This document shows, piece after piece, positions 32,760 to 44,433 of a DNA stretch of 44,879 nucleotides. The stretch is taken from positions 1-44,879 of the forward strand of contig JAISTC010000148.1 of NCBI GenBank assembly GCA_031272805.1, written 5' to 3'. The translations under genes and the position numbers were made by a program. The notes under the pieces were generated by a model. That model was not told the origin of the DNA and ran no database searches. It worked only from the letters and a program-made list of their open reading frames with translations. This DNA is from Propionibacteriaceae bacterium. GTDB taxonomy: Bacteria; Actinomycetota; Actinomycetes; Propionibacteriales; Propionibacteriaceae. Numbering within the stretch: position 1 is the first letter of the stretch; every line of letters starts with the position of its first letter.

Positions 32760-33665
32760 TCAGTCGGCGTCGTCGGGGAGGTCCTTGTATCTGGCGTAGA
32801 GCTCGGGCAGGAACTTGCCCAACTGCTGGGCCTCGACCGTGCCGTGCGTGACGACCTTCTTGAGGTACGCCTCGGTCAACATCCAGTCGGGCGTCGAGGT
32901 GTCGATGGCGAGTGCGCCGTCGGCTACGCCCCAGCCGATCCATTCCCGCGTGATCTTCTCCAGGACGCCCCACGGGTTGATGCGCGTCAGCGTCAGGAAC
33001 AGGTGGGTCCCGGGGAGATCGGTCGAGGGGTCGTCGCGCGGGTGGAACGACTCGGTGGCACAGTCGACCCAACAACCGGCCTCCTGCAGGGCCTCCCATC
33101 GGGCAGTGGTCAGGCCGAAGTCACGCGGGTCGAGGGCGTGGCGGATCGAGCCGAGCATCTCCTCCCCCTCCCCCAGGTCGAGCGACTCGACCGTGAAGAT
33201 GCCGCCGGACTTGTCGTGGCCGTTGAGGAAGTAGTGGTCCCAGTGGTCGGCCGGGTTCCAGATCTTGTAGCGCAGGTTGCCCTGGCCAGGCGGCATGTGG
33301 GCCGAGTGGATGTTGATCCAGCGGAAGTACCAGGCCAGCATCGCGGGCGTGCAACCGGGGTAGGTCGTGTAGGACGCGATGTAGCCCGTGCCGTCGTGGC
33401 GCAGGCAGTAGCCGTACTCGGCGGCCTGGTAGCCGACCGGCTGGAGGATGTCCAGCCAGTCCTCGGGCGGCGTGGCGGCCGACTCGTCGAGCGGCATCCG
33501 GTCGAGCAGTTCCTGCTGCAACGGCCCCGGGCGGTGGAGCGGCAGGTCGAAGTACCGGGCGAGAGGCAGGGCCCGTTCTTCGGGCGACAGGGTCTGGCGC
33601 TTGGTCACGAGCAAGGCATTCGGATAGTCGGTCACGACATCCTCCAGAGGGTTGGCGACGGCCAC
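32760..33665 (-). CDS. DAPG hydrolase / phloretin hydrolase (PhlG/Phy) family protein
   Basis: YIASYTTYPGCTPAMLAWYFRWINIHSAHMPPGQGNLRYKIWNPADHWDHYF; C-terminal HGTVEAQQLGKFLPELYARY with HxxxE metal-site pattern. Confidence 0.8.
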   Translation of the reverse strand: MAVANPLEDVVTDYPNALLVTKRQTLSPEERALPLARYFDLPLHRPGPLQQELLDRMPLDESAATPPEDWLDILQPVGYQAAEYGYCLRHDGTGYIASYTTYPGCTPAMLAWYFRWINIHSAHMPPGQGNLRYKIWNPADHWDHYFLNGHDKSGGIFTVESLDLGEGEEMLGSIRHALDPRDFGLTTARWEALQEAGCWVDCATESFHPRDDPSTDLPGTHLFLTLTRINPWGVLEKITREWIGWGVADGALAIDTSTPDWMLTEAYLKKVVTHGTVEAQQLGKFLPELYARYKDLPDDAD

Positions 33666-33725
33666 CGGGCGACCTCGGCCTGCGATGGCCCTGGCTTCGC
33701 CCGATTTACTTCATCATACTTAACT

Positions 33726-33751
33726 AAGTAGTTCGGATGCAAGAACTACTT
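33726..33751. promoter_or_regulatory. MarR-type operator palindrome AAGTAGTTC-GGATGCAA-GAACTACTT
   Basis: Perfect 9-bp arms, 8-bp spacer, in the divergent intergenic region between hydrolase (33665, -) and marR (33830, +). Confidence 0.75.
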
Positions 33752-33829
33752 CGCAGTTCGGGGCGGCCCCGTCCCGGCGGCCTCCGCCGGTGCTAGCCTG
33801 CCCTTGAGACACGACGGGCGGAGAAGCGG

Positions 33830-42162: not shown

Positions 42163-43070
42163 GCCGTCACCTCCCGCCGGCGCAGGTAGGTGATCAGCGG
42201 CACGGCCGTGGCGATGACCAGCAGCGCGATCATGAAGGAGAGGGAGCTCGACGTGCCGAACAGGCCCTGGCCGTACTGGCGGTACACGGCCACGTTGAGG
42301 ACGCTCGTGGCGTCCCCCGGGCCGCCCTTGGTCGTGGCGAAGATGACGTCGAGGGCGCTGAACGAGCCGACCAGCGTGACGACGATGTTGAACGTGAAGG
42401 CCGGGGCCAGGAGCGGGACCTCGATCGAGCGGAACCGCCGCCACGCCCCCGCGCCGTCGATGATGGCCGCCTCGACGACCTGGCGCGGAATCGAGTTGAG
42501 GCCGGCGATGTAGACGAGCGTGACGAGGCCGCACCACTTCCAGCCGTCGACGAACCCGACCGCCAGCAGGGCCGAGTGCTGGTTGCCGAGCCACGAATAG
42601 GTGAAATCGCCGCGCACGAACAGCGAGAGGAACGAGTTGACCGGCCCGTGGGGGTCGAGGACGGCCGACCAGATGTACCCGGCGGCCAGGGGCGACATCA
42701 GGACGGGGAGGAAGAACACGGTCCGGAAGACGGAGTTGACCCGGTTGGACTGTTGGAGGGCCTTGGCCAGCGCCAGGCCGGTGAGGTTCTGGACGGCCAT
42801 GGTCGTGACGGCGAAACCGATGGTCACGAGGGTGGAGTGGACGAGGATGCCGAGCGAGAACATCTGCCGGAAGTTCGTCAGCCCGTTGAACGTGATGGTG
42901 TTGGAGAAGCCCGTCCAGCGCGTGAAGGAGAGGACCGCGTTGGCGATGAACGGGACGACGAAGAAGAAGCCGACCAGGAGCATGGAGGGCAGGGCGAACC
43001 AGACGCGGAACCGCGCCTTGCGGGCGGGCCGCGTCTGGTTCGGAGCCTGGACGGACGACAGGGACGACAT
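42159..43070 (-). CDS. Carbohydrate ABC transporter permease (MalF-like)
   Basis: FVVPFIANAVLSFTRWTGFS; PRQVVEAAIIDGAGAWRRFRSIEVPLLAP. Confidence 0.92.
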   Translation of the reverse strand: MSSLSSVQAPNQTRPARKARFRVWFALPSMLLVGFFFVVPFIANAVLSFTRWTGFSNTITFNGLTNFRQMFSLGILVHSTLVTIGFAVTTMAVQNLTGLALAKALQQSNRVNSVFRTVFFLPVLMSPLAAGYIWSAVLDPHGPVNSFLSLFVRGDFTYSWLGNQHSALLAVGFVDGWKWCGLVTLVYIAGLNSIPRQVVEAAIIDGAGAWRRFRSIEVPLLAPAFTFNIVVTLVGSFSALDVIFATTKGGPGDATSVLNVAVYRQYGQGLFGTSSSLSFMIALLVIATAVPLITYLRRREVTA

Positions 43071-43107
43071 GGTGGCTGCTCTGTGGGAGGCGGGGTGCCC
43101 CGGTGTT

Positions 43108-44433
43108 CTAGCCCTGCGCTTCCCGGGCCTGGTCGACGAAGGTCTGCCACTTCGTGGCGGCCTCCTGCGGCGTGGCCTGGCCGACGAGCACGCTGAGCGC
43201 GAGCTGGCCGAAGTTGCCGAAGCCGGGCACGGACTGGTTGAAGGCCGGGGTGGTGGCCGGGTCCTGGAGGATCGCGGCCAGCGACTGGTAGAGCTCGCCG
43301 AGGTCGGACGGCAGGGTCGCCGTGTCCAGCGTCGGCGTGGACTTGGTGTCGTTGATGTAGTCCTGGTAGCCGGTCGTCGTCGCCCACTCGATGAAGTCCT
43401 GGGCCGCGGCCTCCTTGGCCGAGTCGCCGGTCGTGGGCACGAAGTAGCTGCCGATCGGGCTGCCGGAGTAGGAACCGATGCCCTTCTCCGCCGAGATCGG
43501 GGCGAAGCCGACGAGGGCGTCTACCGCCGCCGTGTCGCCGTCGCCCAGGTCGTAGAACTGGCTGATGAAGTCGGACGGCAGGATGGTCAGCGCGGCCGTC
43601 CCGTCGTACACCGCCTTGATCGAGTCCTGGAAGGTGGCGGTGGCGACGTCGGCGTTGACGCAACCGGCCTTGACCAGGTTGTCCACGGCCGTCAGGCCGG
43701 CCACGATCGGGCCGTCCGGGTCGTCGACCTTCTCCGTTCCGGCGGCGACGGCCTGGCCCCAGGCGTCGTCCGCGTTGTAGTCGGCCATGTAGGCGAACCC
43801 GGCGATCATGTTGGCCGGGAACTCCGAGCCGCCGCCGACGTTGATGAGGTCGACGCCGGTCGCCGTCACGGTCGGGCAGATGTCGAGCAGGTCGTCATAG
43901 TTCTTGGGCAGGTCGACGCCCGCGTTGGCGAAGACCGTCTTGTTGTAGAACATGCCGTAGGAGCTGATCGGGCCGAGGGCCACGCCGAGGACCTGGCCGT
44001 CGAGCTCGCCGGAGTGGTTGATGAGGTGGCTGACGAACCCCAGGCCGGAGAGGTCGACCATGTTCTCCGCCATGTTGAGCTGGCGCATGTCCTGCGGCGC
44101 CGGCGAGTACTCCAGGATGTCCGGCCGGTCGCCGGTCGCCCACTTGGTCTGGACGGCCGTGGTGTACGTGTCGGCGGGCAGGTCGAGCAGTTCGATCGTG
44201 TTGCCCGAGTAGGCCTCGTAGGCCTTGTAGAGGTTGAGCTGGGCGTCCGAGTCGGCGGACTGGTGCCACATTGTGAGGGTCACGCCGGCCGCGGCCGGGG
44301 CCTCGGAGGTGGCCGCCCCGGCGGCGCTGGACTGGTCGTTGGTCGTGGAGGAGCCGCCGGAGCAGGCGGCCAGGAAGAGGGCGCCGGCGGCCGTGGCGAC
44401 GACCGCCACGCGGCGCAGGGAGTTGGAAGACAT
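43108..44433 (-). CDS. Carbohydrate-type ABC extracellular solute-binding lipoprotein (copy B)
   Basis: MSSNSLRRVAVVATAAGALFLAACSGG; high similarity to 30704..32029; next to its permease genes. Confidence 0.9.
   Translation of the reverse strand: MSSNSLRRVAVVATAAGALFLAACSGGSSTTNDQSSAAGAATSEAPAAAGVTLTMWHQSADSDAQLNLYKAYEAYSGNTIELLDLPADTYTTAVQTKWATGDRPDILEYSPAPQDMRQLNMAENMVDLSGLGFVSHLINHSGELDGQVLGVALGPISSYGMFYNKTVFANAGVDLPKNYDDLLDICPTVTATGVDLINVGGGSEFPANMIAGFAYMADYNADDAWGQAVAAGTEKVDDPDGPIVAGLTAVDNLVKAGCVNADVATATFQDSIKAVYDGTAALTILPSDFISQFYDLGDGDTAAVDALVGFAPISAEKGIGSYSGSPIGSYFVPTTGDSAKEAAAQDFIEWATTTGYQDYINDTKSTPTLDTATLPSDLGELYQSLAAILQDPATTPAFNQSVPGFGNFGQLALSVLVGQATPQEAATKWQTFVDQAREAQG

Follow-up and report, generated by a model that had tools for sequence, protein, structure and literature searches.

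To our knowledge, only a few C-C bond hydrolases have the PhlG fold, and the ones of known activity act on phloroglucinol ketones. PhlG is zinc-dependent and has a Bet v1-like fold (PMC8003664), and a pathway from phloretin hydrolase to phloroglucinol has been described in gut and soil anaerobes (PMC10470551). Here, we analyzed a stretch of 44,879 nucleotides from a Propionibacteriaceae bacterium (the window), which forms a single contig of a draft assembly (2.96 Mb, 239 contigs) and in which a PhlG-like protein is encoded among regulator, esterase, ceramidase-like and importer genes. A preliminary description had placed this unit at 32760-44433, and we extended it to the left to a second solute-binding protein (SBP) gene, so that it spans 30704-44433; all the gene families named in that description were found within the window. 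We conclude that the unit is a genuine catabolic cassette that was acquired, is linked by a shared operator and encodes a member of a new PhlG subfamily. On sequence grounds, we lean with moderate confidence towards a horizontally acquired cassette, repressed by its regulator MarR1, that would import and de-esterify a plant-type ester and then cut a C-C bond.

The PhlG-like hydrolase and its active site

The proposed resemblance of the protein at 32760-33665 to PhlG and phloretin hydrolases was borne out, as it scored 85.9 bits against PF18089 (gathering cut-off 22.7) and its model (pLDDT 91) had the PhlG fold. The top PDB matches in Foldseek were 3hwp, 5xey and 5xe5, with a best E value of 7.5e-13, and PhlG and phloretin hydrolase matched the model far above any other solved structure. 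The protein is like PhlG (3HWP) and the M. abscessus phloretin hydrolase (5XE5/5XEY) in fold (Foldseek TM score 0.59-0.74), Pfam family, three zinc ligands and the equivalent of Tyr121, but it differs from them in sequence (20-24% identity) and in gene context.

Residues were compared in an alignment of 23 subfamily members with the two solved enzymes and with ten homologues that are distant. The equivalents of PhlG Tyr121, His129, His270 and Glu274 were conserved in the subfamily, where H141, H274 and E278, at the His129, His270 and Glu274 positions, were invariant in 23/23 sequences. The zinc ligands of PhlG we take to be His129, Glu160, His270 and Glu274; the first two metal-ligand positions lie about 10-12 residues closer together in the PhlG-like protein than in PhlG and phloretin hydrolase. 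The whole subfamily also departs from both solved enzymes at two other positions. PhlG His214, kept in the solved enzymes and in all ten distant homologues, is Gly, Ser, Thr or Ala in the 23 members, and Tyr229, which is Tyr in both solved enzymes and Phe in four of the ten distant homologues, is Glu in every member.

A true acylphloroglucinol or phloretin hydrolase, in a cassette degrading flavonoid-type dihydrochalcones or antibiotics like 2,4-diacetylphloroglucinol (DAPG), would fit the PF18089 score, the fold and the four retained equivalents. We nevertheless regard it as unlikely: the protein gave 36.1 bits with the PhlG equivalog NF047887 (DAPG hydrolase), against a cut-off of 600, and, because His214 and Tyr229 are absent from every subfamily member, the enzyme is unlikely to act on phloretin or DAPG. 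The analysis thus does not support the earlier suggestion of phloroglucinol, DAPG or phloretin as substrate.

Linkage, gene order and operator

The 15 closest relatives were chosen by the PhlG-like protein alone, and 13 of them had a gene similar to those of the two ceramidase-like proteins of the window (Cer1 and Cer2) within about 10 kb (the fetched stretch), against 0.23 expected from the number of Cer genes per genome. The nominal tail probability of this linkage, 2e-24, is only indicative, since the loci share ancestry. With the window included, a Cer-like gene was present in 17 of 29 subfamily loci; near distant PhlG homologues, it was present in none of 15 loci. The preliminary description had set co-occurrence of the families in other genomes beforehand as the test of its proposal, and unrelated genomes did share them. 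Eleven of the 12 gut loci (L007-L018) contained a 7-bladed lactonase, and gut loci also carried BD-FAE or EstA_Ig-like esterases, FUSC/ArAE or MATE exporters, LysR regulators and oligopeptide-type importers. Because of these different partners, the partner set can be said to vary by lineage, with the PhlG/Cer pairing recurring. Pairs of a Cer-like protein and a serine esterase recurred in loci of Firmicutes and on plasmids of Agrobacterium, Pantoea and Klebsiella. When plasmids were searched with the PhlG-like protein, a single weak match was obtained.

The cassette and its sites are composed as follows.

30704-32029, minus strand: SBP2, sugar-type solute-binding lipoprotein (PF01547, 2e-17; 78% identity to SBP1)
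32128-32147, no strand: operator-like site upstream of SBP2 (2 mismatches; TTGACA beside)
32189-32695, minus strand: small membrane protein, no Pfam family (directly after PhlG in L004-L006 too)
32760-33665, minus strand: PhlG-fold C-C hydrolase, distinct subfamily (PF18089, 3.8e-24; model; residue table)
33707-33748, no strand: two operator sites in the divergent promoter (33707-33726, 2 mismatches; 33729-33748, perfect)
33830-34333, plus strand: MarR1, divergent from PhlG, presumed repressor (PF12802, 3.3e-11)
34358-35407, plus strand: AH2, amidohydrolase_2 variant (PF04909, 4.7e-26; gamma-resorcylate decarboxylase alignment)
35438-35713, minus strand: DUF2798 small membrane protein (PF11391, 1.7e-11; GTG start, by inspection, overlaps the Cer2 stop)
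35710-36990, minus strand: Cer2, ceramidase-like paralogue (alignment; genome match 1.5e-112)
36987-38774, minus strand: Est2, tandem BD-FAE esterase (PF20434, 6.1e-102, two stretches)
38774-39454, minus strand: SnoaL_4 (NTF2-like) protein (PF13577, 3.2e-11)
39498-40757, minus strand: Cer1, ceramidase-fold hydrolase (profile to 2zws, 1.1e-21; predicted fold; residues)
40757-41299, minus strand: MarR2, within the transport operon (PF12802, 3.2e-13)
41296-42162, minus strand: ATP-binding cassette (ABC) permease B, PermB (PF00528, 1.5e-16; GlcU-like, below cut-off)
42159-43070, minus strand: ABC permease A, PermA (PF00528, 3.5e-16)
43108-44433, minus strand: SBP1, sugar-type solute-binding lipoprotein (PF01547, 6e-18)
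44532-44551, no strand: operator-like site in the SBP1 promoter (1 mismatch; adjoins TTGACA at 44555-44560, minus strand)

One minus-strand operon runs from 44433 to 35438 (SBP1-PermA-PermB-MarR2-Cer1-SnoaL_4-Est2-Cer2-DUF2798) and is compact, its genes overlapping by 1-4 nt at most junctions; the other runs from 33665 to 30704 (PhlG-membrane protein-SBP2), and the plus-strand pair MarR1-AH2 separates the two.

The divergent PhlG/MarR1 promoter and the shared operator noted earlier are both real, with repeats there and before both SBP genes. A perfect palindrome, AAGTAGTTC-N8-GAACTACTT, lies at 33726-33751 and had no match in 100 shuffles even at 3 mismatches. Its core, TAGTTC-N8-GAACTA, was found at up to 2 mismatches at four sites in the window against 0.10 expected, a number reached by no shuffle, and all four (33729, 33707, 44532 and 32128) fall in promoters of the cassette. 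In the PhlG/MarR1 promoter, the weaker copy stands 22 bp from the perfect one. The motif was also present between MarR1 and PhlG in loci L004 (Actinotalea), L005 and L006 (Rhodobacteraceae), which represent two actinobacteria and one alphaproteobacterium, although in L004 only at 3 mismatches; the pairs in L004 and L005 were likewise spaced 22 bp, the copy before SBP had no mismatch in L005 and L006, and a MarR1 relative (46-65% identical) occupied the same place in all three loci. We infer that MarR1 binds TAGTTC-N8-GAACTA, and regulator and operator together make a ready biosensor for substrate discovery. Two further sites in the genome, inside a coding region (C166) and immediately before a ribosomal-protein-like gene (C235), were set aside as chance because a reversed control pattern was equally frequent.

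L004-L006 conserve neither AH2 nor the tandem esterase, as would be expected if the genes were neighbors by chance or drift and served no common pathway. The shared operator, the overlapping genes, linkage far above chance and an order conserved in two actinobacteria and one alphaproteobacterium make that explanation highly improbable.

Accessory enzymes, importer and origin of the cassette

Cer1 scored 28.6 bits with PF04734, against a gathering cut-off of 32.1; it was assigned from a profile match and from its predicted fold, which in Foldseek matched neutral ceramidases only (2zxc, 2zws and 4wgk; E about 3e-22). It has the same catalytic-domain fold as the neutral ceramidases of Pseudomonas aeruginosa (2ZWS) and human (4WGK) in 419 amino acids against about 640-690, and its conserved H89, H196, E344 and Y374 match their zinc ligands His97, His204, Glu411 and Tyr448. 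In place of their catalytic Ser, however, Cer-like proteins have Ala, Asn or Arg; at the position of human Ser354, Cer1 has Ala, and none of 16 relatives has Ser. Cer2 has no Pfam match of its own, was assigned through Cer1, with which it is homologous (31.6% identity), and, unlike neutral ceramidases, lacks two active-site His (HTF; H204 to Q). The ceramidase-like pair reported earlier is thus present, but ceramidase activity is not supported, with the catalytic serine missing in 16/16. Beside PhlG-like genes in two gut loci, Cer-like relatives were seen that have lost metal ligands (L016, 8796-9965; L017, 938-2764), which suggests non-catalytic or altered members.

The two-headed esterase was confirmed by 340 bits with BD-FAE PF20434 in two stretches, with one GxSxG per head at residues 112 and 434 (GGSAGG and GDSSGA) and likely Asp and His motifs in both. 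With the NCBIfam model of subtype B tannase, Est2 gave 70.5 bits against a cut-off of 300. In AH2, HxH has become NxH (NIH near the N terminus), and Ser takes the place of the catalytic Asp (GSSFP opposite STDWP). Its nearest solved relatives, gamma-resorcylate decarboxylase and ACMSD amidohydrolases, all PF04909, have HxH and the catalytic Asp, whereas AH2 and a 79% orthologue carry the variant motifs. Because this orthologue shares NxH and the missing Asp, AH2 is a conserved variant and not the result of decay. It has neither the HxH (or ExH) nor the catalytic Asp sought in a decarboxylase, and the decarboxylation suggested earlier is therefore doubtful; AH2 is a local addition to the cassette. 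An independent pairing of the two families was observed in L107 (537-2460), where a distant PhlG homologue adjoins an HxH-type amidohydrolase_2.

For the importer, an SBP (SBP_bac_1) and two permeases of sugar (CUT1) type stood as described, but not the dedicated set, as no ABC ATPase gene was found in 30704-44433; because the cassette encodes none, a shared ATPase is presumed. We also considered that SBP1 and SBP2 might belong to two importers, but no permeases accompany SBP2, and its leader is shared with SBP1, so that duplication is simpler. Instead of feeding on its compound, the cassette might detoxify something antibiotic-like, given that PhlG itself degrades an antibiotic (PMC8003664) and that exporters of the MATE, MFS and FUSC types occur next to several of the relatives. 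Detoxification needs no uptake, however, and with importer genes in both operons under one operator motif and a duplicated SBP, we find this quite unlikely.

That the cassette was acquired horizontally is indicated by the tree, its rarity in the family and the fact that congeners lack it next to SepH. In the tree, the PhlG-like protein of the window clusters, with support 100, with those of Actinotalea, Nocardioides and a genome of Rhodobacteraceae, and among 198 other genomes searched in the family of the window only one had a relative, in two tandem copies placed in other branches. DUF4193-SepH was kept in 6/6 congeners examined, and no cassette genes were found beside SepH in these six, four of which had about 13-15 kb beyond it. 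The order in Actinotalea, PhlG-membrane-SBP-PermA-PermB-MarR2-Cer1-SnoaL_4-Cer2-MarR-DUF2798, is that of 30704-44433, which appears circularly permuted and carries at each end a copy of SBP with its leader, about 125 bp of which can be aligned. This permutation may have arisen by tandem duplication followed by deletion, or from a circle inserted by recombination at SBP. A GC-rich hairpin common to both SBP leaders lies just before the start codon (32058-32082 and 44462-44486), and an inverted repeat, AGGATCGCTCAATC / GATTGAGCGATCCT, at about 44592-44663, near the contig end upstream of SBP1, is possibly a terminator or recombination remnant. In L094 (from the family of the window) and L090 (gut-type Firmicutes), a short-chain dehydrogenase/reductase (SDR) adjoins paired PhlG-like genes that group in the tree, which suggests another cross-phylum transfer.

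Substrate, proposed pathway and described systems

The best plasmid match of Cer1 (41-42%) was on Agrobacterium plasmids from walnut, where the homologue adjoins an EstA_Ig-like esterase and a subtype B tannase (494.8 bits, curated cut-off 300) is located at a distance of about 5 kb. The neighbors of the AH2 orthologue include a dienelactone hydrolase, a flavin monooxygenase, a DUF4440 (NTF2-like) gene and a fumarylacetoacetate-hydrolase-family gene, and the Rhodobacteraceae cassette adjoins an MhpA-like hydroxylase (558 bits, cut-off 390) and an iron alcohol dehydrogenase, with an intradiol dioxygenase about 13 kb away. The tannase and the aromatic-catabolism neighbors therefore indicate phenolics, and the sugar-type importers, an FGGY kinase and an MFS_2 transporter indicate a sugar or polyol part; a phenolic or polyketide ester or glycoside would reconcile both. 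With aromatic-acid-exporter-type genes in gut loci added, this context favors the ester-bearing, probably phenolic plant compound proposed earlier. In a Rhodobacteraceae genome (L112, 1131-14280), flavin monooxygenases, an iron alcohol dehydrogenase, a branched-chain-type ABC importer and an intradiol dioxygenase were seen adjoining the cassette.

Several observations weigh against the phenolic-ester cassette. The genome of the window was searched for an intradiol dioxygenase that could complete the breakdown of an aromatic ring, and none was found; the Cer linkage was weaker in later loci, at 3 of 13 (L091, L158 and L163), where three of the 13 were under 6 kb. PhlG Glu160 aligned to L162, two residues off the invariant E160, in a region of uncertain alignment. 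The FGGY carbohydrate kinase and the MFS_2 sugar transporter stand beside L093 and L090, and the subfamily pocket, rich in charged invariants, suits a sugar-like or alicyclic substrate equally. Together with the invariance of R132, K134, D140, D143, H144, E205, R228 and E241, the sugar type of the importer and the SDR adjoining the PhlG copies in L090 and L094, these last points agree with a carbohydrate-derived or alicyclic 1,3-diketone as substrate, e.g., from a cyclitol or acylated sugar, with the aromatic neighbors coincidental; we hold this doubtful in view of the tannase near the closest plasmid Cer1 homologue, the genes of aromatic catabolism that neighbor the AH2 orthologue and L006, and the FUSC/ArAE-type exporters in five gut loci.

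Under the phenolic-ester reading, a small compound that bears an ester, in all likelihood an ester or glycoside of a plant phenolic or polyketide, would be imported with the shared ATPase, and it or a product would free TAGTTC-N8-GAACTA from MarR1. The tandem BD-FAE esterase would strip acyl groups, Cer1, as a serine-less ceramidase-fold zinc hydrolase, may open another ester, lactone or amide alongside Cer2, a non-canonical partner, and the PhlG-fold enzyme would perform retro-Claisen hydrolysis of a C-C bond next to a ketone in a polar, non-phloroglucinol substrate. Import, de-esterification and C-C cleavage are thus retained from the preliminary description; phloroglucinol-specific chemistry, ceramidase activity and decarboxylation are not supported.

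More broadly, and only tentatively, it is possible that actinobacteria, an alphaproteobacterium and gut Lachnospiraceae and Oscillospiraceae share an undescribed pathway in which PhlG-fold enzymes with a Glu-containing pocket hydrolyze one or two C-C bonds of an abundant plant compound, accompanied by serine-less ceramidase-fold zinc hydrolases that would form a new hydrolase class. A changed-pocket subfamily linked to ceramidase-shaped proteins would offer both families a testable pathway, and the cassette could explain breakdown of a common plant compound by gut and free-living bacteria. Among the papers accessible to our literature search, none described this gene combination.

The pAt plasmid region of walnut Agrobacterium is like the cassette in pairing a Cer1 homologue with a serine esterase and in having a MarR gene nearby, but it is without an annotated PhlG-like gene or sugar-type importer. 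In the two walnut pAt loci (L123, 12001-20126, and L124), Cer-like, EstA_Ig-like esterase, multicopper oxidase and subtype B tannase genes were observed together, possibly as a plasmid-borne tannin-use region. With the phloretin-to-phloroglucinol pathway, the common theme is retro-Claisen C-C hydrolysis in gut Firmicutes; no PGR-, DPGC- or TAL-type genes were seen in the cassette, which carries other hydrolases instead.

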